34,057 nt of DNA from Bacteroidales bacterium (GTDB lineage: Bacteria; Bacteroidota; Bacteroidia; Bacteroidales; UBA7960): NCBI GenBank assembly GCA_003559855.1, contig PWJZ01000107.1:1-34057 (forward strand), in the 5' to 3' direction. The notes under the pieces are model-generated. The model saw only the letters and a list, made by a program, of their open reading frames with translations, ran no database searches and had not been told where the DNA came from. The position numbers and the translations under genes were made by a program. Below, piece by piece: positions 7,377-33,534 of the stretch. Each line of letters starts with the position of its first letter. The stretch's first letter is position 1.

Positions 7377-8744
7377 ATGGGAAAAACAAAAACCGCTTTT
7401 TTTTGTCAGCATTGCGGTGCTCAATCTTCGAAATGGGTTGGCAAATGTCCTTCCTGTAATGAGTGGAACACTTATGTTGAGGAGGTTTTGGAAAAGCCTT
7501 CGGCCGGTACTTCCGGATACAGGAAAGCTTCGACCGTTTCATCGCGTCCGAAGAGGCTTGATGACATCAGCACCGGCGAGTCGCCGAGATATTCGACCGG
7601 CATCAGTGAATTTGACAGGGTTTTGGGCGGTGGTATTGTTGCCGGGTCTGTAATGCTGATAGGTGGTGAGCCGGGAATAGGAAAGTCTACGCTGATGATG
7701 CAGCTTGCCCTTACAGCCGGCAACCTCAGGACCTTATACGTTTCAGGCGAAGAAAGTGAGTTGCAGATAAAAATGCGTGCCGAAAGACTCGGGTTGCACA
7801 ATAGTGAATGTATCATCTTTACTGAAACCGACACGGGCAACATTTTCCGTCATATCCATGAGATCAAGCCTGATAATGTAATTGTTGATTCCGTACAGTC
7901 TATGATATCACCGGCTGTTGAATCGTCTGCCGGCAGCGTATCCCAGATACGCGAATCAGCATCAGAATACATACGCTATGCCAAAGAAACAGGTACGCCG
8001 GTATTTTTGGTAGGTCATATAACCAAGGAAGGTTCGCTGGCAGGCCCGAAACTGCTTGAACACATGGTTGACACGGTAATGGTCTTCGAAGGCGACACTA
8101 ATCATATTTACAGAATATTGCGTGCCACAAAGAACCGCTACGGATCAACATCGGAGCTGGGCATTTTTCAAATGGAAGCTAACGGGCTTGTTCAAGTCAG
8201 CAATCCTTCCGAACTGCTTATGTCGCATTACGACAAATCGCTCAGCGGCATCGCCGTCTCAGCAACCATCGAAGGAATAAGACCGCTGATGATAGAAACA
8301 CAAGCCCTTGTAAGCTCGGCAGTATATGGCACACCTCAACGATCATCAACAGGATTCGACATCAGACGGCTTAATATGCTGCTGGCCGTCCTTGAAAAAA
8401 GATGCGGTTTCAGAATCGCGGCTAAAGACGTGTTCCTCAACATAGCAGGAGGTATTAAAGTGAACGACCCGGCTACCGACCTCGGAGTAATATGCAGCAT
8501 ACTATCCTCAAACCAGGACACACCCGTTAGACCAAACGTATGTTTTGCCTCCGAAATAGGATTGTCAGGAGAACTAAGACCGGTAACAAGAATAGAACAA
8601 AGAATTGACGAAGCGGAAAAACTCGGCTTCAGCGAAATTTATGTGTCGAAATACAACATCAAAAATTACCGGAAAAATAACCAAAAAATAAAGATCATCA
8701 CCTCAAATAAGATCGAACAGGTATTTACCAGATTGTTCGGGTAA
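7377..8744 (+). CDS. radA: DNA repair protein RadA (Sms)
   Basis: A 455-residue protein of normal RadA length. RadA is a hexameric DnaB-like helicase that drives branch migration during recombination and repair. Domains in order: zinc finger CQHC...CPSC at residues 10-27; RecA-like ATPase with Walker A GGEPGIGKST near 95-105 and LYVSGEES; the RadA-specific motif KNRYGS near 252; and a C-terminal Lon-like domain (from about 275) with IAGGIKVNDPATDLG and ASEIGLSGELRPV. All key residues are present. It starts at ATG 7377 after a terminator, and stands alone. A short TGCAGA/TCTGCA hairpin follows at about 8762. Confidence 0.97.
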   Translation: MGKTKTAFFCQHCGAQSSKWVGKCPSCNEWNTYVEEVLEKPSAGTSGYRKASTVSSRPKRLDDISTGESPRYSTGISEFDRVLGGGIVAGSVMLIGGEPGIGKSTLMMQLALTAGNLRTLYVSGEESELQIKMRAERLGLHNSECIIFTETDTGNIFRHIHEIKPDNVIVDSVQSMISPAVESSAGSVSQIRESASEYIRYAKETGTPVFLVGHITKEGSLAGPKLLEHMVDTVMVFEGDTNHIYRILRATKNRYGSTSELGIFQMEANGLVQVSNPSELLMSHYDKSLSGIAVSATIEGIRPLMIETQALVSSAVYGTPQRSSTGFDIRRLNMLLAVLEKRCGFRIAAKDVFLNIAGGIKVNDPATDLGVICSILSSNQDTPVRPNVCFASEIGLSGELRPVTRIEQRIDEAEKLGFSEIYVSKYNIKNYRKNNQKIKIITSNKIEQVFTRLFG

Positions 8745-9181
8745 AATAGCAGCAGCCTCGTGCAGATCACCTCTGCAACATAAGGAATATAAAAATGAAA
8801 TTTATGCTTTTTTGTTAAAATTGTATATCAAATAATTGAATGGATACAAAATCATTTACTTTTACATTCCATAAAAAAATTGAAGACTGAAGATGAAAGC
8901 ACAAGATGGGGAGAGAGTGATATTATGAGAGCGGGAGAGAGTGAGGGGTGTGAGAGCGGGAGAGGGTGAGAGCAGGAGAAATTGACTGTGTGCATAACTC
9001 TGAGTAACTCTGTGGTTAAATCTCTGTGGTTAAATCTTTTATCACAAAATGTCCGGGATGATTTGTCTTCCGGCCTCAGTACAGATAACTTTAAAATGAG
9101 TTATACAGGATACATATAAATAAATAGTCAATAAATAAATAAATTAAATAAATAAACTAATAAATATTAAATTCAGAAAAG
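8745..9181. repeat. Intergenic region with GA-rich tract and repeated words
   Basis: No gene is seen. A GA-rich tract lies at about 8893-8980 (units such as GAGAGCGGGAGAGAGTGAG), in the same orientation as that after the TolC gene. Next, 8994-9035 holds the word AACTCTGTGGTTAAATCT twice over, related to words at 22413-22470 and 23869-23900. From about 9115 to 9172 there is an A+T-rich stretch of AATAAATA units. The promoter of the efflux operon should lie here, but no perfect consensus was found. Confidence 0.6.
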
Positions 9182-10555
9182 ATGACTCAAAATATTTTTA
9201 AATATGGAAGTTTAGTTATTTTGCTGTTATTGGTTTTCAGCCTAATTGACGCGAGGCCTTTACAAGCGCAAAATGTTTGGACCCTTGAATCTTGCATAAA
9301 GCATGCTCATGAGAAGAATCTCACTATACGTCAACAGGAGCTTGGTGTGGAGGTAGCTCAGGAGAATCTGACCCAGGCGTCTTCAGAGAGGTTTCCGACG
9401 CTGAATTTTAATGCTACACACGGTTATAATTATGGCAAGACTATAGACCCTTTCACCAATGAGTTTGTTGCTGAGACTGTACGGACGAACAATTTCAGTG
9501 TTTCATCGGGTATGGTTTTATTCAACGGCTTTCAGATAAACAAGGTCATAGAGCAAAGCAGGCTGGTTTTAGATGCGAGCCGTCATGATGTAGAGGCTGT
9601 ACGCAATGATATCTCGCTGGCTATTTCATCGGCTTATCTGGAGATTTTGCTTGGCAAGGAGCTGATAGATGTTTTGGAGGGTCAGCTTGAGGTTACGCGC
9701 CAGCAGGTGGAGCGGATGAAAAAATTTGTGGAAGCCGGCGCGTTGCCGCGTGGCAACTTGCTGACCATCGAAGCCCAGGCTGCATCGGAAGAGCTGCAGC
9801 TTATCAATGCACAAAACCACTTGCAAATGGCATACATACACCTGGCCCAGTTGCTCGACCTGCGCGAAACAGACGACTTCAGGATCGAAGCACCCGACAT
9901 TGAGATCCGCCCAGATGCAATGACCGACCTCTCACCGGCTGAAATATACAATGTGGCAGTGAATATCCAGCCCGACGTGAAAGCGGCAGAATTACGCGTG
10001 ATGAGCGCCGAAAAGGACGTGGAAATAGCCCGGAGCGGCAAATATCCCATGCTTGCCCTCAGAGGAGCATACGGAACAGGATATTCAGGAGCCAGCTATG
10101 AAATTTCTCCCGAATACCAAACACAAATAAAGCCTTTTACAGACCAGCTCGAAGATAACCTCAACGCATCAGTAGGACTATACCTTACAATACCGGTATT
10201 CAACAATTTCCAGACACGCTCGGCAATAAGCAGGTCAAAGGTGGCATTGGAAAACAACAAATTGTCGAAACGCATCGTCCGCGACCAGGTTTTTAAAATA
10301 ATACAGCAATCCCATGCCGACGCCAAAGCATCTCTTAAAAAATATGAAGCAACCAAAAAAAATGTCGGAGCTCTCGAAGAAAGCTTCAGACATACCGAAC
10401 AACGGTTTAACGTAGGCATGGCAGACCCGATAGAATATAACGACGCCAAAAACAGGCTCGCAACCGCCGAATCGGAATTGCTCCAGGCTAAATATGAATT
10501 CGTTTTCAGAATAAAAATACTCGACTTCTATATGGGTATTCCTATTACGTTATGA
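9182..10555 (+). CDS. TolC family outer membrane efflux protein
   Basis: A 457-residue outer-membrane channel protein of a tripartite efflux or type I secretion system. A signal peptide ends near residue 30 (LLLLVFSLIDARPLQAQN). The mature part shows the two homologous coiled-coil halves of the family: the first begins WTLESCIKHAHEKNLTIRQQ and includes NFNATHGYNYGKT; the second begins near residue 260 with DVKAAELRVMSAEKDVEIAR and ends in helices such as FRHTEQRFNVGMADPIEYND. The N-proximal WTLEECI-like opening is typical. The HlyD-type adaptor gene follows 350 nt later. No inner-membrane pump gene is between or after them. Substrate unknown. Confidence 0.92.
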   Translation: MTQNIFKYGSLVILLLLVFSLIDARPLQAQNVWTLESCIKHAHEKNLTIRQQELGVEVAQENLTQASSERFPTLNFNATHGYNYGKTIDPFTNEFVAETVRTNNFSVSSGMVLFNGFQINKVIEQSRLVLDASRHDVEAVRNDISLAISSAYLEILLGKELIDVLEGQLEVTRQQVERMKKFVEAGALPRGNLLTIEAQAASEELQLINAQNHLQMAYIHLAQLLDLRETDDFRIEAPDIEIRPDAMTDLSPAEIYNVAVNIQPDVKAAELRVMSAEKDVEIARSGKYPMLALRGAYGTGYSGASYEISPEYQTQIKPFTDQLEDNLNASVGLYLTIPVFNNFQTRSAISRSKVALENNKLSKRIVRDQVFKIIQQSHADAKASLKKYEATKKNVGALEESFRHTEQRFNVGMADPIEYNDAKNRLATAESELLQAKYEFVFRIKILDFYMGIPITL

Positions 10556-10905
10556 ATTCAATAAATAACGGGTAGTGAGGGTGAGAGCGGGAGACTGAGG
10601 GACTGAGAGAACTTATGGAACTTAGAGAACTAAGGGACTGAGGGACGGAGGGATTGAGGGAAGAGGCATAGAGCATAGGGTATGGGGCATGGAGTAATAG
10701 GTGTTCGGTAATCCCGAAGGGTCGGGATTCAATCGGTATATTGTATTATTCGTAATTCGTATACCCGACCCGTTGGATTTTTTTATCCAACGGGGTGAAT
10801 AAAAGATTCGTTATTCGACACAATAAACATTTGTAATTCGTAAATTCGCATATTATTCATAATTCGACAATATAGAAATCTGAACAATAAAACCATTATC
10901 CTGTA
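10556..10905. repeat. Intergenic GA-rich tract and palindromes between TolC and adaptor genes
   Basis: No gene is seen. About 10570-10690 is a GA-rich tract (GGGAGACTGAGGGACTGAGAG and similar 9-10-mers) starting some 15 nt after the TolC stop. It is followed by a small hairpin AATCCCGA/TCGGGATT at 10712-10731 and a perfect one, CCCGTTGGAT (10769-10778) and ATCCAACGGG (10785-10794), with a T-only loop. Around them lie degenerate ATTCGTAATTCG words to about 10870. The perfect hairpin has no T-run after it. Confidence 0.7.
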
Positions 10906-12252
10906 ATGAAAGCGAAAAGATTAATAAGATACGGTATTATTTTGGTTGCCGTATTGATAGTTTTTGTAGTTATCGCACAGCGTCGTGGCTGGCTTGGTTC
11001 TGCTGAGGGCTTACCTGCTGTTACTGATACTGCGGCGCTTCGCGATATTGTAGAAATAGTAACTGCCAATGGCAGGATACAGCCTGTAACCGAGGTCAAG
11101 ATCAGTCCTGATGTTTCGGGAGAGGTTATTGAGCTAAGGATCCACGAGGGCGATCATGTAAGGCGCGGCGATTTGCTGGTGCGTATCAACCCCGACATTT
11201 ACGAATCTATGCTTGACCGAGCCATAGCCGCCCTGAACACCAACAAGGCAAACCTGGCGAGCTCCCGTTCGCGCAAGGTACAGGCCGAAGCACAATTCAT
11301 CAATGCAGAGTCATCATATCTGCGGAACAAAAAGCTTTTTGAAGAGGATGCCATAAGCCTCTCAGAATATGATGGAGCACGGTCGCAATACCTGATAGCC
11401 AAGGCTGAGGTTGAGTCGGCAGAACAAGCCATAATTGCCGCCAAATACCAGGTAAAAAGCGCCGAAGCAACCGTCAGGGAAGCGCGTGACAACCTGACCA
11501 AAACAAATATCTTCTCACCAATGGACGGCACCATCTCCAGGCTCGACACCGAAATAGGAGAAAGAGTGGTAGGAACATCACAATTTGCCGGCACCGAAAT
11601 AATGCGGATAGCAAACCTCAATGTTATGGAAGTGCTCGTAGAAGTTAATGAAAATGATATTGTACGGGTTAACGAAGGCGACACTGCCATTATCGATGTT
11701 GATGCCTACTTCGGCGAAGAGTTTCTGGGTGTGGTGACATCCATAGCCAACTCCGCCAAAACCGAAGCGCAGGCAATAGACCAGGTCACCAACTTTGAAG
11801 TACGCATAAGGATCTTGCCCGGATCATACGAACATCTGCTTGATGAAAACAAAAAATATACGTCACCGTTTCGTCCCGGCATGTCATCAACGGTCGACAT
11901 TCAAACACAAAAAACCTTTAATGCGGTGTCAGTACCCATTCAGGCAGTTACAATGCGTGACATCGTGCCGGAAAAGAAAGACAGTATACAAGGTGAAGAT
12001 ACTGAAATGGCTAATGCCGAAAGAACCGGGCGCCGACGGCGGGTAGAGGTCATTTTTCTGTTTAATGACGGGACAGCTGAAATGGTACCGGTAAAAACGG
12101 GCATACAAGACCTTAACCATATTGAAATAAAGGAAGGATTGGAGGAAGGCGACGAAGTTATTACCGGTCCTTACAGGTTAGTGTCCGCGACATTGCAGGA
12201 CGGGGATAAGGTCAGAAAAACCGGACGGCATACGTTGTTTACCGATAAATAA
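10906..12252 (+). CDS. HlyD/MacA-type periplasmic adaptor protein
   Basis: A 448-residue membrane fusion protein linking an inner-membrane pump to the TolC channel. An N-terminal anchor helix is clear (IRYGIILVAVLIVFVVIAQ, residues about 7-25). It then shows the lipoyl half (GRIQPVTEVKISPDVSGEVI, HEGDHVRRGDLLVRI), a long hairpin of helices (residues about 105-200), the second lipoyl half (IFSPMDGTISRLDTEIGERV), and a beta-barrel/membrane-proximal part with PFRPGMSSTVDI and KTGIQDLNHIEIKEGLEEGD. The length and GRR linker near 375 suit MacA-like proteins, which serve ABC pumps. It is 14 nt upstream of tsaB and may be co-transcribed with it. Confidence 0.9.
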   Translation: MKAKRLIRYGIILVAVLIVFVVIAQRRGWLGSAEGLPAVTDTAALRDIVEIVTANGRIQPVTEVKISPDVSGEVIELRIHEGDHVRRGDLLVRINPDIYESMLDRAIAALNTNKANLASSRSRKVQAEAQFINAESSYLRNKKLFEEDAISLSEYDGARSQYLIAKAEVESAEQAIIAAKYQVKSAEATVREARDNLTKTNIFSPMDGTISRLDTEIGERVVGTSQFAGTEIMRIANLNVMEVLVEVNENDIVRVNEGDTAIIDVDAYFGEEFLGVVTSIANSAKTEAQAIDQVTNFEVRIRILPGSYEHLLDENKKYTSPFRPGMSSTVDIQTQKTFNAVSVPIQAVTMRDIVPEKKDSIQGEDTEMANAERTGRRRRVEVIFLFNDGTAEMVPVKTGIQDLNHIEIKEGLEEGDEVITGPYRLVSATLQDGDKVRKTGRHTLFTDK

Positions 12253-22409: not shown

Positions 22410-22486
22410 TGCTCTGTGTAACTCCGTGCAACTCCGTGGTTCACATTTATCCTCTGTGGTTCACATTTATTCTGACTGCAAATATA
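22410..22486 (-). promoter_or_regulatory. Repeat words and -7 box upstream of the Wzi-like gene
   Basis: 22479-22486 reads TATATTTG on the minus strand, a full TAnnTTTG match. The leader between it and the gene contains the repeated words ACTCCGTG and TCTGTGGTTCACATTTAT, the same family as at 8994-9035. Confidence 0.45.
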
Positions 22487-23181: not shown

Positions 23182-23799
23182 TCAGCCTGTCAGCGTTTCA
23201 AAATTCCGATAGAAATCATACAGGCTCTTTTTGATATTTTCATCTTCTGTTATTTTGTTCAGAATCCCTGTCATCGCCGCCACTTTTTCGTTCGGTATGC
23301 CCATAAAGGCCGATAATGTTTTCAGTGTTGCGGCAGAAGGCTTGTTTTTGATATATGTTTTCAGTATGTTATGCCATGTTTTGATGACTGTTTGTGGTAT
23401 TGCGCACTCTGTTTCCTGCGGCAGTATTGTGTCGAGGTATTTGCTGACAGCCGGCAGGTTTTTGGCATAGCTGAAAAAGAACGTATCTTCGGCAATTTTG
23501 GCTATCCATCCGGGCTGCATATCGGTATGGTGATCTTCATATACCGGGTTTTCACCCATAAACTGCTGCCTGGCTTTATCAACCAGCGAATGAAACATGA
23601 CGCCGGCTTTGAAGGGCTCCTCTCGCCGTATATCCGCAACAGACACCCGGTCAAAATGTGTCGCACTCCTGTTAATAACACCCATGTAACGTATGTCGGG
23701 AAACAGCGTTCCAATATAAAACATCCTGCGGTCCATACCGGCAAACAACCGGTCGAAGACCTTGTCGGTGATGGCGATATGTGTCACAGGACCGGGCAT
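23182..23799 (-). CDS. Putative zinc-dependent phospholipase C-like protein
   Basis: A 205-residue, mostly helical protein without signal peptide. It starts MPGPVTHIAITDKVFDRLFA and has spaced His/Asp residues that fit the metal-site plan of the zinc-dependent phospholipase C fold: His in PVTHIA, Asp in FPDIRYMG, His in ATHFDR, His and Asp in MFHSLVDKA. Similar short cytosolic proteins are often annotated only as hypothetical, and no activity is known. The gene is followed by the VanZ-like gene. Confidence 0.5.
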   Translation of the reverse strand: MPGPVTHIAITDKVFDRLFAGMDRRMFYIGTLFPDIRYMGVINRSATHFDRVSVADIRREEPFKAGVMFHSLVDKARQQFMGENPVYEDHHTDMQPGWIAKIAEDTFFFSYAKNLPAVSKYLDTILPQETECAIPQTVIKTWHNILKTYIKNKPSAATLKTLSAFMGIPNEKVAAMTGILNKITEDENIKKSLYDFYRNFETLTG

Positions 23800-24110
23800 T
23801 TTGTTATTTCAACGCTGTTTTGGTCTGTTAATTGAGTTCTCTGTCAACTTTATTGACCATAGGATGCTCTGCGCAGCTCCGTGAAGAGCACTGTGGTTAG
23901 AATTTTCACCGCCAAGCCGCTAAGAGCCGGAAGTTTCCAGTCCCTGCCGGGAGCCGGAAATTCCTTAATTCACTTAGTTCTCTCAGTTCTCTCAGTCCCG
24001 CTCTCCCTCTCTCCCTCTCTCCCATTTTCAAGCTCTCCCGTCTCTCCGTATCTCCGTCACTTAGTTCTCTAAGTTCACTAAGTTCCCTTAGTTCTCTAGG
24101 TGTTATGTCA
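23800..24110. repeat. Intergenic block of mixed repeat words and CT-rich tract
   Basis: No gene is seen. In order: ACTCCGTG-type words (about 23869-23900), ACCGCCAAGCCGCTAAGAG (23909-23927), an imperfect palindrome with GGAAGTTTCCAGTCCC and GGGAGCCGGAAATTCC (about 23928-23962), then a CT-rich tract of TTAGTTCTC and CTCTCCC units to 24105. The tract ends at the stop of the DUF4143 ATPase and reads as GA-rich on that gene's strand. Confidence 0.7.
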
Positions 24111-25253
24111 CTATTTGATGATCTCGTCAGACCATAGCATTGTTAAGAACATATTCCATGGCAGTATATCACAATTGCCTGATTTACGTGGCAATGGGTC
24201 GTTGGTAACAAGTATCAGCTTTTCAACTTTATATTCTTCCGAGAATTTTTTTAATCCTTTCAGATGCCTGTTATTCGCCTGGCGGGTTGCTTTTACTTCA
24301 ACAGCAATTTCATGGTCGCCCAGAATAAAATCCACCTCCATGCCTGATGTGGTACGCCAGTAGCTTAGGAGATAATTAAGTTGTGAATAATGACTGTGTG
24401 CATATATTTCATGATAGATATAGTGTTCAAAGGCTTTACCAAAGGCTTCACTCCCTTGTTCAATAGCTTTTCGCTTCAAAAGATAATTTGCTATGCCCAC
24501 ATCAAAGAAAAAAAACCGCGGGGATTGTATGATCCGCCGTTTCGGTTTTTTCTGAAACGAGGGCAGGAATCTTCCTATCAGTGTGTCTTCAAGTATCTGA
24601 AAATATTCTTTAACTGTAGGTGAGCTGACACCACATTCGGTGGCAATATTTGAATAATTCACTATTTCACCATTGGAGAAAGCTGCAGCCTCCAAAAAAC
24701 GGTTAAAAGAGCTGATATTACGTATTTTTGCCTCAGCCATAATCTCATCCTGCAGATAACTGCCCACGTATGCAGAAATAAGTTTTTGAGACTCATCAGA
24801 AAGATAATGCCTGGGTAGTAAACCGTTGTTTAAAGCCCTGAGGAGGTTAAAATCAGGAATCTCTTTCATTATCAAGGGATAGAGTTCATAACGAATAGCT
24901 CGTCCTCCAAGAAGGTTTTCATCACTCCGTAGTATTTTTCGAGGACTGGATCCACTGAGAATAAACTGTACTTCTTTGTTGACAATGAGCCAATGAACTT
25001 CATTGAGCAAAGAAGGGATGCGTTGAATCTCATCAATAATAACAGGTTGCCTGCCCCTGTATGCCAAAACCTCTTCCCGCAACAATTCAGGGTTACGGCT
25101 ATATCTCTCAAAAACATCGGAAAGCAATAAGTCAAAGTATAAATGACCCGGATACCTGTGGGTAAGTAATGTGGTTTTGCCTGTTTGCCTTGCACCCCAA
25201 AGAAACAAACTGTTCTTTTCCGTATCCTTAAATGTTTGAAATCTTGTAAACAT
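24111..25253 (-). CDS. AAA-family ATPase with DUF4143 domain
   Basis: A 380-residue protein. The N-terminal AAA domain has Walker A FLWGARQTGKTTLL (about 18-31), Walker B PVIIDEIQRIP (about 70-80) and sensor region FILSGSSPRKILR. The C-terminal DUF4143 part includes a winged-helix section (ATECGVSSPTVKEYFQIL) and ends with VDFILGDHEIAVEVKA, a PD-(D/E)XK-like pattern. Such ATPases are common in accessory DNA of bacteria and archaea and their function is unknown. It stands alone, with a TATATTTG box on its strand at 25304-25297. Repeat blocks flank it on both sides. Confidence 0.88.
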   Translation of the reverse strand: MFTRFQTFKDTEKNSLFLWGARQTGKTTLLTHRYPGHLYFDLLLSDVFERYSRNPELLREEVLAYRGRQPVIIDEIQRIPSLLNEVHWLIVNKEVQFILSGSSPRKILRSDENLLGGRAIRYELYPLIMKEIPDFNLLRALNNGLLPRHYLSDESQKLISAYVGSYLQDEIMAEAKIRNISSFNRFLEAAAFSNGEIVNYSNIATECGVSSPTVKEYFQILEDTLIGRFLPSFQKKPKRRIIQSPRFFFFDVGIANYLLKRKAIEQGSEAFGKAFEHYIYHEIYAHSHYSQLNYLLSYWRTTSGMEVDFILGDHEIAVEVKATRQANNRHLKGLKKFSEEYKVEKLILVTNDPLPRKSGNCDILPWNMFLTMLWSDEIIK

Positions 25254-25570
25254 GAAAATTTAAAGTAAGGGTTTAAATTATAATGAAAAATTAAAGCAAA
25301 TATAAGGACTTTTTTTAATTCTTTATGTTTATGATTACAGCTATTGTATTCCCTCCGGATGATAGAAACTCCTCCTTAGCCGGAAGTCCCGCATCAGCGG
25401 GATTCCTTACAACGCCAGGAACTGGAAGCTCCCGTATCAGCGGGATTCCTTACGACAGTCTCTTAGTTCTCTTAGTTCTCTCAGTTCTCTTAGTTCTCTC
25501 AGTTCTCTCAGTTCTCTCAGTTCTCTTAGTTCCCTCAGTCTCCCCGTCTCACCATCATTTACTTTCAGAA
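25254..25570. repeat. Promoter box, palindromes and CT-rich tract between ATPase and wecB
   Basis: No gene is seen. The ATPase promoter box lies at 25297-25304. At about 25369-25452 two copies of an imperfect palindrome occur (GCCGGAAGTCCCGCATCAGC, then GGAACTGGAAGCTCCC and GGGATTCCTTACG). From about 25455 to 25556 a tract of TTAGTTCTC/TCAGTTCTC units runs up to 15 nt before the wecB stop, GA-rich on the wecB strand. Confidence 0.7.
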
Positions 25571-26626
25571 TTACAACAGATCCAAAAGGATGCTCACCAT
25601 TTTCCGGGCTACATTTTCTCCAAAAAGGGCAGCGGGTTTATTTTCTGGGGAAAAGCCGGTCAGCTTGCTTTCAAAATCTTTGTCATTATGATCGAGCAGT
25701 ATGTTCCATCCGTTTTCGACGGTTTCGACCCATTCTGTTTCGGGGCGCAGGGTTATGCAGGGTTTTTCGAGCAAATAAGCTTCTTTCTGCACACCTCCCG
25801 AATCGGTTATTATCTTTTGAGAAAGCCATTGCAGCCTGATGAAGTCAATGTATCCGTGGGGCGGGACAAGCTTAACATTGTAAGGTATCTTTATTTTGTT
25901 CGTTTCGATGATCTTGCGTGATCTGGGGTGAACCGGAAACACTATGGTGTTGTTAATATTTTCCAATTTTGACAATAGCAGGGCAAGGTTTTGGGGGTCA
26001 TCAACATTATATGGCCGGTGCAGTGTCAATAAAAAGAAGGATTTCGGCAGAGAATACCCTTTATCATTTTCCGGTAACTCAACAGCTTTTTTCAGGCATG
26101 AATCGAGGGCGTCAACCATAATATCTCCCGTAAGAAATGCTTTTTCACCCAGCCCTTCATTTTTGAGGTTATTCATTGCCGTTTTAGTAGGCGCAAAAAG
26201 GATATCGGCGGTATGGTCGGCTACTATGCGGTTGATCTCTTCGGGCATTGTTCTGTTGAAGCTACGCAGTCCTGCTTCTATGTGTATTGTTTTGATGGAG
26301 AGCTTAACGGCTGCGATTGCACCTGCCATGGTTGAGTTTGTATCTCCGAAAACGACGGCGGCATCGGGTTTTTCGTGCAGGAGGACCTTTTCAATGGCTT
26401 CGATCATACGACCGGTTTGCGCTCCCTGCGGTAAGGAACCGATATTCAGGTTATGGCCGGGGCGGGGGATCTCCAGGTCCTTCAAAAAAAAGTCGGACAT
26501 ATTATCGTCGTAGTGCTGCCCGGTATGAACGATTATTTCGTGTGCTTTACCTTTCAGGGCTTTTGAAAACGGGCCTAGCTTGATGAACTGGGGGCGGGCA
26601 CCGACTATTGATAATATTTTATGCAT
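25571..26626 (-). CDS. wecB: UDP-N-acetylglucosamine 2-epimerase (non-hydrolysing)
   Basis: A 351-residue enzyme that interconverts UDP-GlcNAc and UDP-ManNAc for surface polysaccharides. Motifs: SIVGARPQFIKLGP at the N-terminus, HTGQHYDDNMSDFFLKDL, VVFGDTNSTMAGA, HIEAGLRSFNRTMPEEINR, FPVHPRSRK, and the UDP-binding TDSGGVQKEAY near residue 275. Length and catalytic residues are normal. It has a TATATTTG box at 26650-26643 just before the ATG. No other glycan-synthesis gene adjoins; the DUF354 protein at 30-31 kb belongs to a related fold. A GC-rich fragment of a second such epimerase lies at 33.6-33.8 kb. Confidence 0.93.
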   Translation of the reverse strand: MHKILSIVGARPQFIKLGPFSKALKGKAHEIIVHTGQHYDDNMSDFFLKDLEIPRPGHNLNIGSLPQGAQTGRMIEAIEKVLLHEKPDAAVVFGDTNSTMAGAIAAVKLSIKTIHIEAGLRSFNRTMPEEINRIVADHTADILFAPTKTAMNNLKNEGLGEKAFLTGDIMVDALDSCLKKAVELPENDKGYSLPKSFFLLTLHRPYNVDDPQNLALLLSKLENINNTIVFPVHPRSRKIIETNKIKIPYNVKLVPPHGYIDFIRLQWLSQKIITDSGGVQKEAYLLEKPCITLRPETEWVETVENGWNILLDHNDKDFESKLTGFSPENKPAALFGENVARKMVSILLDLL

Positions 26627-26896
26627 ATTTTGGTGATTTCTGCAAATATATATTCATTTTCTCACTCTCACGCTCTCATCTTCGCGATTCCGTGGTTATT
26701 CTTTTCACCGCCAAGGCGCCAAGGCGCGAAGGTTAATTTTTACTTTTAAAAAGTTATTCATATTTTTTTTCAATATTTCTTTGCGTCTCCGCTTCTTAAA
26801 TCGGAAGCTGGAAGTCCCTGGCGGGAGCTTCCGGTTCCTTCGGCCTCAAGGAATTTCCAGCTCCCGACAGGGACCGGAAACTTCCGGTTAAAAAAA
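26627..26896. repeat. Intergenic block: promoter box, CGCCAAGG word and palindromes
   Basis: No gene is seen. The wecB -7 box is at 26643-26650. CACCGCCAAGGCGCCAAGGC (from 26707) is a copy of a word also at 23909 and 32449. At 26809-26886 two imperfect palindromes abut: GGAAGCTGGAAGTCCC with GGGAGCTTCCGGTTCC, then GGAATTTCCAGCTCCC with GGGACCGGAAACTTCC. Confidence 0.7.
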
Positions 26897-27595
26897 TCAA
26901 CTAAATACAGGAAATTCACGATACATTTTCAGTAATTGTATAGTTTCATCTTTTAGTTTTTCCCGGACAAATGTTTTAAGATCATTGTCAATCAAATCTC
27001 CTATACCATTTAATAAGCTTTTTGGAGGTATTTTTTCAATCCTTGAGATACATTTATTAATATATTTTTCAAATTGTAAATTCATTCTTTGTTCTACAAT
27101 TATTTTATTAACAGGAGTTTTCTCTTTCATAAAAAAATAAACGTCAAAGACATCGCGGTTCGTAAATATATCTCTGTCCAATAAAGCAGATAGTTTATGC
27201 GCAAACATATCAGGTTTGATCATAACTTTTACAGGAATACCCAAATAATTTTTAATTTCATATTGATCAGGAAACTCCCTGTTTGATATCTCGATCTTCA
27301 AATTGCGTTCATATTCGCCATAATCTAAAACAAGCAACAGGCCAAAATGCTTTTCGGCTTCATCCCTGATTTTACCATAATTGAGCAGTATTTTTCTTAT
27401 TTTTTTGTACACTTCACTACTTTTACCCGGTGTTAACAGGTTAAAATCAAGATCAACAGAAAACCTGGGCAATTTGTAAAAAAGCATTTGAGCTGTACCA
27501 CCTTTAAAACCTAAAACTGTTGACAGTTCAGTATCAGCGTAGATATCTTTAAGTACTGAAACCAGAAAGAATTTATGTCTGTTGATATCAAGCAT
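26897..27595 (-). CDS. abiEii: AbiEii-type nucleotidyltransferase toxin
   Basis: A 232-residue toxin of the type IV AbiE system. The nucleotidyltransferase site is GFKGGTAQMLFYKLPRFSVD (residues about 28-47) followed by LDF, i.e. the family's GG...DxDF. The later motifs VMIKPDMFAHKLSALLDR and NRDVFDVYFFM are also present. AbiEii-like toxins transfer nucleotides to tRNA or other targets and block growth; several give phage abortive infection. All catalytic residues look intact. Its ATG overlaps the antitoxin stop by 8 nt. Confidence 0.9.
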   Translation of the reverse strand: MLDINRHKFFLVSVLKDIYADTELSTVLGFKGGTAQMLFYKLPRFSVDLDFNLLTPGKSSEVYKKIRKILLNYGKIRDEAEKHFGLLLVLDYGEYERNLKIEISNREFPDQYEIKNYLGIPVKVMIKPDMFAHKLSALLDRDIFTNRDVFDVYFFMKEKTPVNKIIVEQRMNLQFEKYINKCISRIEKIPPKSLLNGIGDLIDNDLKTFVREKLKDETIQLLKMYREFPVFS

Positions 27596-28157
27596 TCTTT
27601 AAAAGATTTTGAACGCGGTTTGTTAATTTATCAGATTGGTATACAGGAAGAATACTAAAAACAAACTTCTTATTCAAGCTATCAATTGAATCAAAAGAAA
27701 ATTCTTTTTTCAGATAGAGTATGTCTAAAAAAGCCCGTTCAGGTGATGCAATGCTAATACCGTTATCTTGCATATCAATTCCTGTTGCGTTATATAATAT
27801 ATCATTTTTAATTTTACGATACTCAAAGATATGTCCGTTAATATTAATTGTACGACTTAAATAACTGATATTTGTTACCTGTGTATAATACTGGAATACA
27901 ATACCGGCTTTCTGTAAAACATACTCCAATGAAATATAAGCCGGCTTAAAAATCTTACAAGCCAGTTCTTCAACAGAATATTTCTCTTTAGTATATATAC
28001 CGCGCCTTGGATTTTTTAACTTTTTTGTCCGGACGTAATAGTTTAAACGTTGTTTAAGTTTAGAAGCATTGGGCTCGTTTAATAGCATAGCAATTTCCTG
28101 AAAGGAAAAAACCGTTTTTTGGTCTTTGTATAATTTAAAAATCAATTCCGCAGTCAT
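27588..28157 (-). CDS. abiEi: AbiEi-type antitoxin and repressor
   Basis: A 189-residue antitoxin. The N-terminal winged helix (FSFQEIAMLLNEPNASKLKQ, then RLNYYVRTKKLKNPRRGIYT) is the AbiEi DNA-binding domain; the C-terminal part (PAYISLEYVLQKAGIVFQYY; SPERAFLDILYLKK) is the antitoxin domain. In this family the antitoxin counters the toxin without direct binding and represses the operon by binding inverted repeats, and just such a repeat lies 3-47 nt upstream of this gene. It is first in the two-gene operon. Confidence 0.9.
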   Translation of the reverse strand: MTAELIFKLYKDQKTVFSFQEIAMLLNEPNASKLKQRLNYYVRTKKLKNPRRGIYTKEKYSVEELACKIFKPAYISLEYVLQKAGIVFQYYTQVTNISYLSRTININGHIFEYRKIKNDILYNATGIDMQDNGISIASPERAFLDILYLKKEFSFDSIDSLNKKFVFSILPVYQSDKLTNRVQNLLKNA

Positions 28158-28159
28158 TA

Positions 28160-28208
28160 TTTGTAAACTTAAGGTTTTATATTTTTATACCTTTAGTTTA
28201 CAAAGATA
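28160..28208 (-). promoter_or_regulatory. abiE promoter and AbiEi operator
   Basis: TTTGTAAACTTAAGGT (28160-28175) and ACCTTTAGTTTACAAA (28189-28204) are inverse with one mismatch in 16, separated by 13 nt. The minus-strand -7 box TATCTTTG (28208-28201) overlaps the outer arm, so a bound repressor would block the polymerase. This is the arrangement known from studied AbiE systems. Confidence 0.8.
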
Positions 28209-28352
28209 ACATATTAACACATCACTGCATAAAATATCAGATATTTTTTGCATTAAGCTGCTTAAATATGCAGATTCTGACTTTATCAGGGAGTTTTGTG
28301 ATAAGAGGTATATCAACAAACAGCTTGCTATTCTTGGATATCGCTGCTACAA

Positions 28353-28619
28353 TTAAGGAAATCTCTTATAAATATCCTTTCTGTGAACAAACCTAACAAA
28401 CTCAACAACGCCTTTCTCGATGATTATGCCTACACGATAATCTCCGGTATTTATTCTGAATACGGTTTTGTATCCTTTTAATTTTTTTTAGTTTTTTATA
28501 TCCTTCAAAGAATCAGCTTCTTCAACATTGACTATGATTTCCGCAATGCTGTCTTTAATATTTTGATCTTTTACTTTATCAAGATCTTTGTAAAACTGTT
28601 TTAAAAATATTGTTTTCAC
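28353..28619 (-). pseudogene. RelE-family toxin interrupted by one in-frame stop
   Basis: Read on the minus strand from GTG 28619 the frame gives an 88-residue RelE-type protein: KTIFLKQFYKDLDKVKDQNI, IAEIIVNVEEADSLKDIKN, stop (TAA at 28490-28488), KKLKGYKTVFRINTGDYRVG, IIIEKGVVEFVRFVHRKDIY, KRFP. The piece after the stop has the family's usual KLKGYK, GDYRVG, H-R-K-D-IYK-FP end. The family normally has Leu where the stop stands (NLKKLKG), so a single TTA-to-TAA change explains it. The frame is intact on both sides. GTG overlaps the antitoxin stop (GTGA). A sequencing error is the main alternative. Confidence 0.85.
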
Positions 28620-28816
28620 TCTTTTCCCAGTTTTTTCATTACTTTTTCCCTGGGTACTTTTTGTTTTCTATCAGCCTCCTTTATTAACTGCATTAAGCCA
28701 AACTCTTCTTTTTCTTCATCAGACAGAAACCTGACTGACACTCCGATTTTTTTTGCCAGCTCAGTTAAAAGCTTCAGATCAGAGCTTGAATTACTTTTTA
28801 ACAATACTGTTTGCAT
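28616..28816 (-). CDS. Antitoxin of a RelE-type pair
   Basis: A 66-residue protein starting MQTVLLKSNSSSDLKLLTEL, then AKKIGVSVRFLSDEEKEEFG and ending LMQLIKEADRKQKVPREKVM, KKLGKE. This is the short antitoxin type that pairs with RelE-like toxins: a beta strand and helix, then an acidic helix for toxin contact. ATG 28816 is preferred to a longer frame from 28888 because a TAAATTTG box at 28848-28841 would start the transcript near 28834. It is intact, while the toxin it should neutralise is broken. Confidence 0.75.
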   Translation of the reverse strand: MQTVLLKSNSSSDLKLLTELAKKIGVSVRFLSDEEKEEFGLMQLIKEADRKQKVPREKVMKKLGKE

Positions 28817-28840
28817 GGTATAATTGTTTTTATATATAAG

Positions 28841-28848
28841 CAAATTTA
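28841..28848 (-). promoter_or_regulatory. Promoter -7 box of the antitoxin gene
   Basis: TAAATTTG on the minus strand matches TAnnTTTG fully; leader about 18 nt. No TTG at the usual distance. Confidence 0.45.
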
Positions 28849-28896
28849 TGAATTTTTGAAGAAATAATCTAATAATTTTCTCCGACAAAGCTTTAA

Positions 28897-29050
28897 GAGG
28901 GTGGGAACGGGAGAGCGTGGGAGAGGGACTTAGGGACTGAGGGACTGAGGGACTGAGAGACTAAGAGAACTGAGGGAACTAAGAGAACTGAGAGACTGAG
29001 GGACTGAGAGAACTGAGAGAACTTAGGGAACTGAGGGAATTGAGAGAAAT
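28897..29050 (+). repeat. GA-rich 9-10-mer tract
   Basis: A run of units such as GGGACTGAG, AGAACTGAG and GGAACTAAG. It is the inverse of the CT-rich tract at 29531-30112; together they bracket a 480-bp segment without genes. The long minus-strand frame through it is an artefact of its lack of stops. Confidence 0.85.
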
Positions 29051-29142
29051 GCACGAGTAATAAGAAGCCACGAATGCACGAGTAATAAGAAGCCACGAAT
29101 GCACGAATAACAAGAAGCCACGAATGCACGAATAAAAAAACG
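29051..29142. repeat. 25-bp tandem repeat
   Basis: GCACGAGTAATAAGAAGCCA begins units at 29051, 29076, 29101 and 29126, each 25 bp long, the last partial and slightly changed. An inverted copy of part of the unit, ATTCGTGTATTCGTGGCT, lies at about 29229-29246. No spacers, so not CRISPR. Confidence 0.85.
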
Positions 29143-29530
29143 AATAATATTCGTACTCAATTGGTTTTGCCGGGCTCCATAATGTTACTCCCTTCGATCG
29201 TGATCTCCCGTTGGCGGGTATGTTTCGATTCGTGTATTCGTGGCTGTATTTAACTTTGATTTAATAATTAAAGACCTGCTGTACATTAAAATAAGATTTT
29301 ACCAAGATTCATTCATTTATCCGGCCGGGTCATTTGAAATATAACTTATGAAGGGATATTCAAAAATCAGAAAAATATTGCCGGACAATCTTGTTAGTAA
29401 TGATGATTTTAATTTTTTAATTATGCCATAAAGCATGCACTGAGCTTTTTGAATAGTCTCAAAGACTCAAAGAAATACAACGGCAATCCGGACGATGGAA
29501 ACTCCTCATTCTTCGGAGGTTTCCATTTCC
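29143..29530. other. Intergenic region between repeat tracts
   Basis: No gene is seen. It holds a diverged copy (about 29187-29225) of the ACTCCCTTCGGTCGTGGTC word found at 20336, then A+T-rich DNA, and a hairpin GGAAACTCC (29497-29505) with GGAGGTTTCC (29515-29524). Confidence 0.5.
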
Positions 29531-30112
29531 CGCCCTTCGCTCTCTACTTTCCCTTCGTTCTCTTCGTCCCTTCGTCCCTTCGTCTCTTCGTCTCTTCGTT
29601 CTCTTAGTTCTCTTCGTCCCTTCGTTCTCTTCGTTCTCTTCGTCTCTTCGTCTCTTAGTTCTCTTAGTCTCTTCGTCCCTTCGTTCTCTTAGTTCTCTTA
29701 GTTCTCTCTCTTAGTTCTCTTAGTTCTCTCAGTTCTCTTAGTTCTCTCAGTTCTCTTAGTTCTCTTCGTTCTCTTAGTTCTCTCAGTTCTCTTAGTTCTC
29801 TCAGTTCTCTTAGTTCTCTTCGTTCTCTTAGTTCTCTCTCTCAGTTCTCTTAGTTCTCTTCGTTCTCTTAGTTCTCTCTCTTAGTTCTCTTAGTTCTCTC
29901 AGTTCTCTTAGTTCTCTTAGTTCTCTTAGTTCTCTTCGTTCTCTTAGTTCTCTCTCTTCGTTCTCTTAGTTCTCTCAGTTCTCTTAGTTCTCTTAGTTCT
30001 CTCTCTTAGTTCTCTTCGTTCTCTTCGTTCTCTTCGTCCCTTCGTCCCTCAGTCCCTAAGTCTCACCATCTCCCGCTCTCCCGCTCTCCCGCTCTCTCAC
30101 CCCCCTCCCGTC
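29531..30112. repeat. CT-rich 9-10-mer tract of about 580 bp
   Basis: By eye some fifty units of the plan TT(A/C)G-TTCTC or TCAG-TTCTC follow each other with a period near 10, mixed in the first part with TTCGTCTC and TTCGTCCC. The end turns to CTCCCGCTCTCC units (30067-30105). One strand is almost all pyrimidine apart from AG/CG steps. The last 57 bases are the 3' end of the DUF354 gene. Confidence 0.92.
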
Positions 30113-31219
30113 TTTAAACCCAAACCTATACTGATAGCCCGCATCATCCCTCATTACCCTGCCGCTCTCCGGATAGTTGCCCACAAACCACACCATAAAA
30201 GCAGCAATATCAATTTTTTCCGATAACAGTTTCTGCCTGTTGTGTTGATATTCCTTACCTGCAGAGCTCCGCATTACGTCATGAACAAGATCCTCCGCCT
30301 TTTTCAATTCATCTGGAGCCGGTTTAAAATGTTTTACAAGGCGGTATTTATTTTCGATCTCCACAATATATCCGCGGGTATTATAATCTATAAATATGGC
30401 CGGAACACCCAGCACAGCGCTTTCTGTTGCTACGGTAGCACTTTCGCCGACAACCAGTTTGGCATTTGCTATGGCCTGGTGAAACTCCGTTTCGGGCAAC
30501 TTAAACCTGTATTGTTCGAGACGGGCAGGCAGGGGAACCTCCGATGAAATAATCACAGGATAAGCTTCCGCCAGTTTCTTTATAAAGTCAAACTTGCTTT
30601 TCGCATCCCATTTTCCGGAGAACATATCGTGCATAGCGCCGTGATTTACCAGGCGGATCAGAATATAGTCCTCATTATTGTCAAAGCCCAGGCGCTTTTT
30701 AAAGTGGGTGTCCGCTGCAAAATTTGCCGGATTCAGATAAGCCAGCTCTTTGTAAGCATCCGCCCTGATATGTTTAACCCCGAAATCTTTCATAAAACAG
30801 GCAGGAGTGATGATATCTGACGAGAATCTTTTATAGATCCATTGCACGATAGTATCCTGTTCGGTATCATCAATAACTATGTGAGGTTTATTTAAGATAC
30901 CTGCAACAATGGCGGCATAGGGTGATGCAAAGCTCAGAAGAATATCCGGTTTGAATTTTTTGGCTGACCGGTATATTTTTACGACGGCACGAATAAGAAA
31001 GAGGGGTTTAAATAATAGTGAATAGCTGCCCTTTCCTTTTGAAACATAATTCAGGTCATGTGCATTTGCAATTTGAGCGGAGCACTCTTTTTCACGGATA
31101 GAAAGCAGGCAGGTATGCCCTTTGTTTTCAAGTTGTTTGATTACAGGAATAAAAAAATGGATATGTGCCGGATGGCCGGTGTCAATAAGAATTTTCAAAG
31201 AATTTTTGTTTTTGTTCAT
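30056..31219 (-). CDS. DUF354 protein, GT-B-fold glycosyltransferase/epimerase-like
   Basis: A 387-residue protein whose first 350 residues match DUF354: ILIDTGHPAHIHFFIPVIKQ at the start, KPDILLSFASPYAAIVAGI, PHIVIDDTEQDT, and in the second domain AIANAKLVVGESATVATESA, LGVPAIFIDYNTRGYIVEIE. The fold resembles UDP-GlcNAc 2-epimerases and GT-B transferases, and such genes occur in surface-glycan clusters. Reaction unknown. The last residues (GRGVRERESGRAGDGET) are encoded by the GA/CT repeat and the stop lies inside it, so the natural C-terminus was replaced or extended. A GA tract on the plus strand at 31301-31400 makes the gene flanked by inverted repeats. Confidence 0.85.
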   Translation of the reverse strand: MNKNKNSLKILIDTGHPAHIHFFIPVIKQLENKGHTCLLSIREKECSAQIANAHDLNYVSKGKGSYSLLFKPLFLIRAVVKIYRSAKKFKPDILLSFASPYAAIVAGILNKPHIVIDDTEQDTIVQWIYKRFSSDIITPACFMKDFGVKHIRADAYKELAYLNPANFAADTHFKKRLGFDNNEDYILIRLVNHGAMHDMFSGKWDAKSKFDFIKKLAEAYPVIISSEVPLPARLEQYRFKLPETEFHQAIANAKLVVGESATVATESAVLGVPAIFIDYNTRGYIVEIENKYRLVKHFKPAPDELKKAEDLVHDVMRSSAGKEYQHNRQKLLSEKIDIAAFMVWFVGNYPESGRVMRDDAGYQYRFGFKDGRGVRERESGRAGDGET

Positions 31220-31300
31220 TTTGTTTGAGGTTCAAACCATTTTTCAGAATGAAATTTGTATGATAACCCCCTAACTATCATTCTTCTTTAATATTTCTTC

Positions 31301-31400
31301 GCGTCTTAGCGACTGAGAGACTAAGAGAACTGAGAGAACTGAGAGAACTGAGAGAACTTAGTGAACTTAGGGAACTTAGTGAACTTAGCAAACTTAGTGA
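31301..31400 (+). repeat. GA-rich 9-10-mer tract
   Basis: Units GACTGAGAG, AACTGAGAG and AACTTAGTG, period about 10, inverse to the tract at 29531-30112. The DUF354 gene lies between the two. The stretch 31220-31553 otherwise holds no gene. Confidence 0.85.
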
Positions 31401-31553
31401 ATAAAAGATATTAGAGAATGTTTTTATTACCAAGCCCATTTCCCCGGGTGGTTTAACTTTTCACTGTTAACTTTTAATCCCGAATTCTTAACAGTCTCGG
31501 GACTTCCGCTTCGCTTCAGCTTTTAACTTTATAAGCGATGTTCGGAATGTCCA

Positions 31554-31694
31554 TTATGCTTTTCTTCTTTGTTTAATCCACAATTTGAAAAATGGATCAT
31601 CTATCTCATACCGATTATTCATCTTGATAAGATAGCCTTTTTGTGTAAGTCTTTTCAGCGCACTGAATGCAGTACTGCTGGCACCCAATTCATA
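31554..31694 (-). pseudogene. C-terminal remnant of an ATP-binding protein
   Basis: On the minus strand a 46-residue frame reads YELGASSTAFSALKRLTQKG, YLIKMNNRYEIDDPFFKLWI, KQRRKA and stop. This is the typical winged-helix end of archaeal/bacterial-type AAA ATPases, where a helix-turn-helix is followed by a YxxDDPFFxLWI segment. A stop lies directly before it and no ATPase domain is found upstream, so it is a relic. It does not come from the 24-25 kb ATPase, which ends differently. Confidence 0.6.
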
Positions 31695-31838
31695 TTACCA
31701 AAGAATTTATTTCGAAAATTTTCGTTGCGAAAACATTCGCAATATAGTTAAAATAGTTGAAAGTGAGACCAGGGTTTGATGAATAGAACGCTATTATTTA
31801 TTTGTCATTAAATTGCTCCTTATAAACACGTATTTAAT

Positions 31839-32165
31839 TTATTTTAAAAGAAATAAACTTTTTAATAATTTGTAAGCTTCTTTTATAATTTCGATACTTT
31901 TATTACTAAATAGATCTAAACAATATCCTAAATCTAAAACCGCACCAATTATTGCCGGTTCTTCCAATGTGCCGGCTTTTTTCTTTTTTTCAGCCCATAA
32001 CCTGGCTCTTTCAGGATCATTTTCCCAAAAGTACATTCCGTGACCTAACCAGTCATAATTTTGCTGGCTCTTTTTAAAGTATTTGGGATTGTTTAAGAGT
32101 TGCTGTTGGTCTTTTTTTTCACAACCATGAAAACCAATAATTAAGTTTGGCCTGGATGAATACAT
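31839..32165 (-). CDS. ADP-ribosyltransferase-like protein, apparently truncated
   Basis: A 108-residue protein: LIIGFHGCEKKDQQQLLNNP, then YDWLGHGMYFWENDPERARL, WAEKKKKAG, and EEPAIIGAVLDLGYCLDLFS. The HG, the G-x-YF and the RA-x-x-WA pattern follow the plan of ART-fold families such as DUF3990, where these residues frame the NAD site. Full-length relatives as I recall them are about twice as long; here the frame stops after KLLKSLFLLK, with no continuation in the other frames. So the gene is probably cut short. It starts 15 nt after a 55-residue gene, which looks like its partner. A toxin role is inferred. Confidence 0.5.
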   Translation of the reverse strand: MYSSRPNLIIGFHGCEKKDQQQLLNNPKYFKKSQQNYDWLGHGMYFWENDPERARLWAEKKKKAGTLEEPAIIGAVLDLGYCLDLFSNKSIEIIKEAYKLLKSLFLLK

Positions 32166-32180
32166 TATAACAAAATATAA

Positions 32181-32348
32181 TTACTTTTCAGAAGGGAAAT
32201 AGATTTTTTTGTATGGGTGCTTTAAGTTGCCATTCTTATCAATAATACCTGCACCCTCAAAAGTTTCTTTAATATCCTTACTGCTTCGCTTATCTTTTTG
32301 AGCAGCTTTTAATATGCTTATCAACCGTTGTGCATCATTTGTGCTCAT
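32181..32348 (-). CDS. Small protein, partner of the ART-like protein
   Basis: A 55-residue protein, MSTNDAQRLISILKAAQKDK, then RSSKDIKETFEGAGIIDKNG, NLKHPYKKIYFPSEK. The first half is a charged helix; the second has a G-x-I-D-x-x-G-x-L-K-x-P-Y ending with PSE that I recall from short genes ahead of this ART-like family. It could be an antitoxin or an accessory. It has a TACATTTG box at 32398-32391 with a TTG 22 nt further up, which supports a real two-gene transcript. Confidence 0.6.
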   Translation of the reverse strand: MSTNDAQRLISILKAAQKDKRSSKDIKETFEGAGIIDKNGNLKHPYKKIYFPSEK

Positions 32349-32390
32349 TTTGAAAAGTATTTAAAATAAAAATTCAATTGATAATTATTA

Positions 32391-32423
32391 CAAATGTAAA
32401 AATAAATATTACTTAAAAAACAA
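32391..32423 (-). promoter_or_regulatory. Promoter of the small protein/ART-like pair
   Basis: Minus strand TTG (32423-32421), 22 nt, then TACATTTG (32398-32391), matching the -7 consensus. Leader about 36 nt. Confidence 0.5.
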
Positions 32424-32448
32424 AATAAATGCTTAATTTTTTTTTACC

Positions 32449-32690
32449 GCCAAGTCGCTAAGGCGCTAAGTTTCCATAAAAACGTTAGTGATAATTCCTG
32501 GTTTTTAAAATTTTTTTCTTTTCTTTTTTTCTTGATTATGCTATCCTCCCGCTCTGCGATAAGGCAAGAATTGCAGCCAAAGATGGATAAACCACTTGGG
32601 CGCAATTCTAAGCCTTATCACATTCACGCCCACACCGGCCCGCAGTTTTGCCGGGCCTGCGCGCACGTGCTAATAAAATTAAGTGGTGTA
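32449..32690. repeat. Repeat word and GC-rich nested palindromes
   Basis: No gene is seen. ACCGCCAAGTCGCTAAGGCG at 32449 is the third copy of a dispersed word. Then GATAAGGCAAGAATTGC (32558-32574) pairs with GCAATTCTAAGCCTTATC (32602-32619), GGCCCG (32637-32642) with CGGGCC (32652-32657), and CCACTT (32592-32597) with AAGTGG (32681-32686). The core is much richer in G+C than its surroundings. Confidence 0.65.
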
Positions 32691-32726
32691 TTTATAGTAA
32701 ATAGGTGATGAATTATTGCAATAATC

Positions 32727-32834
32727 CGGAAGCTGGAAGTCCCTATCGGGAGCTTCCAGTTCCTGCGATCGTAAGGAATTGCCGGCTTCCGAAAGCTTTC
32801 GGAACTAAACCCGGAAGCCGGAAGTCCCGGAGGC
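32727..32834. repeat. Imperfect palindromes of the GGAAGCTGGAAGTCCC family
   Basis: GGAAGCTGGAAGTCCC and GGGAGCTTCCAGTTCC at about 32730-32765, then GGAATTGCCGGCTTCCGAAAG and a half copy GGAAGCCGGAAGTCCC up to 32830, abutting the hepT stop. Other copies: 23928, 25375, 26809, 33940. Confidence 0.8.
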
Positions 32835-33471: not shown

Positions 33472-33488
33472 AGTTGTAAAGTATATAA

Positions 33489-33519: not shown

Positions 33520-33534
33520 AATTTCTTTTTTCAC

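Follow-up and report, generated by a model that had tools for sequence, protein, structure and literature searches.

GA-rich tandem arrays in a Bacteroidales genome and its relatives lie preferentially behind genes with their purine-rich strand in the sense orientation, a strand bias that is real, strong and non-absolute. The arrays belong to a known kind of repeat with a known positional rule: the strand rule described in 2015 for Xanthomonas and Nostoc recurred partly in this genus and fully in 80 contigs from elsewhere in the phylum. Its recurrence with different words, mostly lacking the G-quadruplex motif, uncouples the rule from G-quadruplexes and opens its cause to testing, be it tolerance of stop codons, transcription or directional array growth. 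The best reading of our data is that the tracts are ordinary intergenic repeats with a fast turnover, the orientation of which is set mainly by tolerance beside the gene end.

GA-rich arrays in the window

The window, by which we mean the whole stretch of 34,057 nucleotides that was analyzed, is an entire contig (C28) of a 2.97-Mb genome comprising 131 contigs. A mis-binned contig was rejected, as the one radA found in the genome, a single copy, sits on this contig; the nearest named relative by RadA was the Bacteroidales MAG B1Sed10_61, with 79% identity. We found eight GA-rich tracts in total, all in gaps between genes, six of which were sense after a gene end. They are listed here with the neighboring genes:

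7377-8744, plus strand: RadA-type gene with KaiC/AAA_25/Lon_C domains
8893-8988, plus strand: T1, 8-bp array in the gap between radA and the TolC-type gene; sense
9182-10555, plus strand: TolC-type outer membrane efflux gene (OEP)
10571-10697, plus strand: T2, 8/9-bp array followed by GCATAGGG words, in the TolC-HlyD gap; sense
10698-10890, plus strand: rest of the T2 gap, with GGTAATC-like and ATTCGTAATTCG words and, by eye, a CCGTTGGAT/ATCCAACGG inverted repeat
10906-12252, plus strand: HlyD-type membrane-fusion gene
23961-24098, minus strand: T3, array past the AAA_14/DUF4143 ATPase gene; sense
24111-25253, minus strand: AAA_14/DUF4143 ATPase gene
25459-25556, minus strand: T4, 9-bp array past the wecB stop, containing GATGGTGAGA; sense
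25571-26626, minus strand: wecB-type UDP-GlcNAc 2-epimerase gene
28616-28816 (28616-28888 if the start is TTG), minus strand: small ORF with no Pfam match, antitoxin-like at a guess, with T5 upstream of its start
28894-29047, plus strand: T5, array upstream of the minus-strand small ORF; antisense exception
29509-30123, minus strand: T6, array of ~600 bp over the end of the DUF354 gene, with the TAG stop inside; sense
30056-31219, minus strand: DUF354 gene, the last residues of which are encoded by the array
31305-31418, plus strand: T7, 9-bp array upstream of the DUF354 start; antisense exception
33516-33610, minus strand: T8, 8-bp array at the end of the epimerase remnant ORF; sense
33589-33765, minus strand: epimerase remnant ORF, with its TGA stop within GATGGTGAGA

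The tracts are degenerate tandem arrays of 8-bp (GAGAGNGN, GGGACTGA) and 9-bp (ACTNAGAGA) words, for which TRF returned periods of 8 and 9 and the multiples 16, 18 and 27. Across the genus, the companion words GCATAGG, AAAAGTT, GGTAATC, TTACCCG and ATTCGTA often occur after or within GA tracts. The initial annotation had named six tracts, behind radA, the TolC gene, the ATPase gene, wecB, the DUF354 gene and the epimerase fragment, and each of these indeed exists and is purine-rich on the same strand as the gene before it. Its statement that this is always so fails at 28894-29047 and 31305-31418, which are purine-rich on the plus strand between minus-strand genes, and its placement of the tracts just after genes does not suit the radA tract, which starts 149 bp past the stop. 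The 10-mer that it reported as recurring at a junction does recur, in three exact copies, at a position that differs per site and hence not at a fixed junction: TCTCACCATC, the complement of GATGGTGAGA, has exactly three sites in the window (25547, 30061 and 33587), and GATGGTGAGA lies ~14 bp past the wecB stop, within the DUF354 frame, and across the stop of the remnant. As GATGGTGAGA was also present in a further tract of the same genome (locus L093), it belongs to the repeat vocabulary.

Other short repeats were also noted. A family of ~10-bp CTCTGTGTAACTCTGTGGTTAAAT-like words occurs in gaps of the genus (window 9000-9037 and 22412-22470; L104:2650; L139:391; L155:13320), while 8-bp repeats of the CGCCAAGGCGCCAAGG type (window 26709-26732 and 32448-32470) appear by eye akin to a TTCGCTAAG array at L087:4034. 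Palindromic pieces of the GGAAGCTGGAAGTCCCTGCCGGGAGCTTCCAGTTCC type recur at 23925-23965, 25375-25455, 26800-26890, 32725-32835 and 33930-33980 of the window, possibly as a REP/MITE-like family.

Orientation of arrays at gene ends

We defined a strict tract as four GRGA spaced 8-9 bp apart and located such tracts by genus-wide pattern searches that were blind to orientation, which led to loci in three species including that of the window. This yielded 29 strict tracts with the window included, of which 22 were sense after a stop, two antisense after a stop, and five elsewhere. The two antisense cases (L098:592 and 1524) are, by eye, two copies of one gene end; the other five comprise T5, T7 and L095, antisense before starts, and L092 and L098:7, sense before starts. 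The orientation, which had been proposed to be nonrandom, thus proved so, with 22 of 24 stop-adjacent strict tracts being sense (two-sided binomial, 3.6e-5), or 20 of 21 once the duplicated pair and two pairs of orthologs are each counted as one (2.1e-5). Seventeen of the 22 sense tracts overlapped the stop or lay within 50 bp of it, including some reclassified by eye, as was done where the hexamer gene caller had missed a call (L101:2025-2540 and the DUF5320 genes). At L098:316-1611, the 3' end of one gene is duplicated together with its array ~930 bp apart, with other ORFs between.

Strict tracts were unevenly distributed. While the 34-kb window held eight, we found none in 975,581 bp elsewhere in its own genome (78 stretches not chosen for tracts), so the window represents a tract cluster. 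None was found in 1.09 Mb of mononucleotide-shuffled sequence, placing the tracts of the window well beyond chance, and called gene sequences contained one in 836,433 bp. Reversed sequence (21 versus 29 tracts) was unsuitable as a control, because a reversed GA array stays a GA array. The counts are lower bounds owing to arrays at contig ends at several sites. Contig ends are no more than a few hundred bases from arrays in G000:C54, G001:C25, G001:C143, G003:C135, G003:C166, G003:C260 and G003:C43, and assemblies seem to break in arrays. The dense part of the cluster (23182-34057) sits among accessory genes, namely the AAA_14/DUF4143 ATPase, AbiEii, HepT and a nucleotidyltransferase; in genome G001, arrays at L098 again lie beside an AAA_14/DUF4143 gene.

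The orientation bias extended to other 7-10-bp words. We called tandem repeats over 149 loci (1,646,900 bp) and counted G-rich arrays by distance, with arrays that share a gene end counted separately. Near stops, sense outnumbered antisense by 27:4 for arrays that overlap the stop or lie at most 15 bp from it, by 21:5 at 15-60 bp and by 21:10 at 60-200 bp; in the stretches not chosen for tracts, the ratios after stops were 14:3, 8:3 and 7:8. Near starts, the corresponding ratios over all loci were 4:3, 7:7 and 28:15 with rising distance. An excess of stop codons was likewise on the sense strand near stops, at 28:2, 24:4 and 20:12 in the same bins and 5:5 beyond 200 bp, and showed no significant preference near starts (4:4, 7:8, 26:14 and 12:9). 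Among arrays no more than 15 bp from a stop, stop-codon density was 0.096 on the sense strand versus 0.025 on the antisense strand. A separate analysis that took a single array for each gene end, no more than 60 bp from the stop, gave 44:9 for G-richness and 48:6 for stop codons in favor of sense (62 ends); over the stretches not chosen for tracts, the values were 20:6 and 25:4 (34 ends). Arrays lying wholly downstream by 1-60 bp carried more stop codons on the sense strand by 33:5, so the bias is not confined to arrays that contain the gene's stop; in the stretches not chosen for tracts, such arrays had a G:C ratio of 13:5 (p=0.10). Length-matched control segments from array-free gaps of the genus exhibited no bias (0.50).

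The gene calls came from our own hexamer caller, which put certain starts too deep within the gene; in the window, it began TolC at 9347 rather than 9182 and radA at 7488 rather than 7377. These inexact starts make the absence of a near-start bias less certain than the bias after stops. Along gaps between same-strand genes of the genus, the G-C skew of the arrays fell, and 11 arrays in divergent gaps displayed the opposite trend; in other Bacteroidota it fell in all three gap types (23, 10 and 9 arrays). We retain side-of-gap symmetry as a rival description.

Several simple causes were rejected. A general purine loading of transcribed gaps was too weak, as array-free gaps had a purine fraction of 0.52 and a GC skew of 0.03 over the first 60 nt after stops. 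Seeding of arrays from their own gene end was not borne out, with a longest shared word of 3.82 versus 3.80 upon permutation (p=0.47; 34 arrays). A replication-strand cause was rejected for the window, where T5, T6 and T7 flip orientation within ~2.5 kb.

Known repeat systems and turnover of the arrays

The STRR sequences of cyanobacteria are degenerate 7-bp tandem repeats in intergenic DNA. The present tracts conform to this class of STRR and heptamer repeats in that they consist of head-to-tail units of ~7-10 bp with substitutions, are dispersed in copies outside genes (29 strict tracts in three species), and differ in unit number among relatives (at the DUF5320 gap). They differ from STRR sequences in word sequence and host. 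A capacity to form G-quadruplexes did not characterize the tracts, with the motif present in five of the 29 strict ones.

The closest counterpart is found in PMC4692102, which describes the G-rich heptamers GGGAATC and GGGGA(C/T)T of Xanthomonas and Nostoc. These are placed either on the coding strand no more than 50 bp from a stop or on the opposite strand up to 50 bp ahead of a start. Both systems consist of intergenic, G-rich short tandem arrays with a coding-strand preference near the stop, some overlapping it; both are scarce in coding regions and divergent gaps, and both vary in length among relatives. The Xanthomonas heptamers also form inverted pairs. The words, in contrast, are not the 7-bp heptamers of that account: here they are 8-9-bp GA words (GAGAGNGN, ACTNAGAGA) together with other families, and they occur in Bacteroidota. 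Also unlike the heptamers, a G-quadruplex motif is present in only 5 of 29 tracts. Of the two positional parts of the rule, the coding-strand preference close to the stop holds for 22 of 24 tracts; an antisense bias before starts was not seen over all arrays of this genus, for which the starts are inexact, and reached 4:19 (sense:antisense) in the 80 contigs. These contigs, fetched for radA from other Bacteroidota, contained 75 arrays in 34 contigs, and their ratios of 15:2 after stops and 4:19 before starts reproduce the rule of PMC4692102 in full.

A second relative is the TAACTGA heptamer, which PMC4679880 describes as direct repeats in Beggiatoaceae, cyanobacteria and five Bacteroidetes and for which it proposes a role in translational regulation. 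Those repeats share with ours the intergenic location of short arrays (7 bp in that case), stops in all frames in the forward direction and the possibility of overlapping gene ends, and also that some relatives have shorter, repeat-free gaps and that contigs end in them; in some Bacteroidetes they are mixed with other heptamers, as occurs here. They differ from ours in word and in lying mostly just before start codons in the Beggiatoa genome. One Bacteroidetes set located behind the stop is described there as having the reverse orientation, and the paper reasons about TAACTGA arrays much as we do below about stop-codon tolerance. A literature search for GA-rich tandem repeats after Bacteroidota genes, based mainly on search listings, showed none beyond these two papers.

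The arrays are narrowly distributed and change quickly. Of 393 genomes from the order, three carried the 9-bp double word (34 matches in the genome of the window, 3 and 1 in the remaining two), as did 1 of 395 genomes from across the phylum, namely that of the window. With a looser pattern applied to 47 genomes from the family, three from this genus (G000, G001 and G003) stood clearly above the reversed-pattern control; G002 gave 3 matches versus 0 in the control, and other genera gave 0-4, similar to their control counts. The TolC-HlyD gap measures 350 bp here with T2, versus 63 bp and no array in the sister genome G003. Behind the DUF5320 gene (a Pfam match), there are two GAACTGAGA units in G001, four in G003 and none in G000 and G002. 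At this site, G001 and G003 have in common a mosaic of GA words, AAAAGTT, GGTAATC and GTTACCC, G000 retains short remnants only, and G002 has a plain inverted repeat. Such absences and differences in size between orthologous gaps show that arrays appear, disappear and change length while the genes persist.

Explanations for the orientation

We tentatively favor, at somewhat short of even confidence, the explanation that array orientation is mainly the outcome of a tolerance filter beside gene stops. In the purine orientation nearly each unit would hold a TAA, TAG or TGA, such that translation would halt soon wherever a purine-oriented array abuts or overruns a gene end. In the pyrimidine orientation, with stops ~4 times rarer, a protein tail would be added when the edge of an array enters the gene. 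Such a filter would work beside stops and weaken with distance, and the purine form of the transcript would be its consequence and not a function. Confinement of the bias to the stop side and its fading with distance are expected from such a filter, as are arrays that supply stops, a shift toward TAG and TGA, and the lack of C in ACTNAG. The stop codon lies inside the array for three genes (DUF354, the epimerase remnant and the G003 gene at L101:2025-2540), and array-followed genes used TAA/TAG/TGA at 11/9/9 (29 ends), as against 701/185/275 over the full set of called genes (p=0.019). In 156 occurrences of ACTNAG, the variable base was A in 60, G in 75, T in 21 and C in none, C being the sole variant without a stop codon. 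A frame on the pyrimidine strand can remain open, as in the 78 aa at 28893-29129 (minus strand).

Several observations speak against the tolerance filter. In the 80 contigs of other Bacteroidota, the stop-codon measure was weak (22:12, p=0.12), while G-richness strongly favored the sense strand after stops (21:2) and was turned around before starts, a pattern that the filter does not predict. Stop content and G-richness are confounded, both being present in 43 of 67 near-stop arrays, and the shift in stop usage equally fits gene ends that are plainly G-rich. Two of the three variants of the 9-bp word, those with A and with T, carry stops on the pyrimidine strand as well and should therefore be filtered weakly. 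At L098:592 and 1524, the arrays of the duplicated gene end are pyrimidine-oriented directly behind the stop. Because the stop precedes the array in many cases, the filter must there have operated in the past.

A rule of pure geometry is a rival: at either end of a gene, the G-rich strand of an intergenic array would point off the closest gene and out into the gap, because arrays would grow from gene-side 3' DNA ends by slippage-prone, purine-favoring synthesis, for instance in break repair. Arrays clear of genes in the 80 contigs had sense G:C ratios of 15:2 after stops (1-60 bp) and 4:19 before starts (1-200 bp), compared to control segments at 0.42 after stops and 0.34 and 0.53 before starts. 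PMC4692102 gives the same two-part rule and the inverted pairs of Xanthomonas, and all eight purine strands in the window, T5 and T7 included, point off the nearest gene edge. We nevertheless consider this geometry rather unlikely to be the cause: arrays not overlapping genes showed no such bias near starts in the genus (G:C on the sense strand of 8:7 at 1-60 bp and 28:15 at 60-200 bp, with inexact start calls), the ratio was reversed at 60-200 bp after stops in the 80 contigs (1:4), the tracts at L092 and L098:7 point toward the nearest start, and the 11 divergent-gap arrays of the genus trend the opposite way. In its widest form, with a G-rich strand directed outward from the gene edge for any word and with no need for G-quadruplexes, either built outward or held by a strand-specific effect of transcription, it would amount to a general bacterial polarity law. 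This we regard as improbable; if it were true, the GA tracts of the window would be the form that a process shared across phyla takes in one lineage.

A tie between placement and transcription, as the initial annotation suggested, is possible. In 3' regions that are transcribed, a purine-rich RNA paired stably with its template in an R-loop could favor array growth on the non-template strand, or it could aid termination. The restriction of the genus bias to the region after stops and its fading with distance fit such a link, and the flips of T5, T6 and T7 within ~2.5 kb argue against a replication-strand cause. Terminator-like sites, however, were not clearly enriched, and in same-strand gaps at L099 and L101 C-rich GTTACCC arrays are sense before the downstream gene, and we deem this link, too, fairly unlikely as the main cause. 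That the transcript carries the purine form, as had been stated, describes just half of what is seen in other Bacteroidota, in which arrays ahead of starts have their G-rich strand antisense. Selection by Rho would work by elimination: a pyrimidine-oriented array would yield RNA rich in C and poor in G, which would load Rho and shut off the genes downstream, leaving only the purine orientation within operons. While T2 does lie within a TolC-HlyD pair that is retained in G003, and the antisense T5 and T7 sit in long gaps, sense C-rich GTTACCC arrays stand between same-strand genes and the sense orientation holds in long gaps as well (T6, L086, L093), rendering Rho a very unlikely cause.

The earlier suggestion of a functional element in RNA 3' ends, be it for stability, termination or protein binding, fared poorly, and we hold it to be highly improbable even though 22 of 29 strict tracts are sense after stops. 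The same genes are tract-free in sister species, which leaves an essential 3'-RNA role unsupported; the 9-bp double word is nearly restricted to this genus, unit numbers differ between orthologous gaps, and the tracts are clustered, with eight in the window versus none in the 975,581 bp elsewhere in the genome. Rfam covariance models produced no match at the gathering score over the window. Predicted terminators numbered 1 versus 2.4 expected from the shuffled mean in one scan, and 12 versus 8.7 (sd 2.7) in another, and none of these sites, sought as a GC-rich hairpin followed by a T run, lay inside a GA tract.

For annotation, the arrays call for caution, as long spurious ORFs can arise on pyrimidine strands and gene ends can be displaced by arrays. 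Open pyrimidine strands yielded or extended such ORFs at 28893-29129 (minus strand, 78 aa), at 33122-33784 (plus strand, 220 aa) and at L098:575-715 (46 aa).
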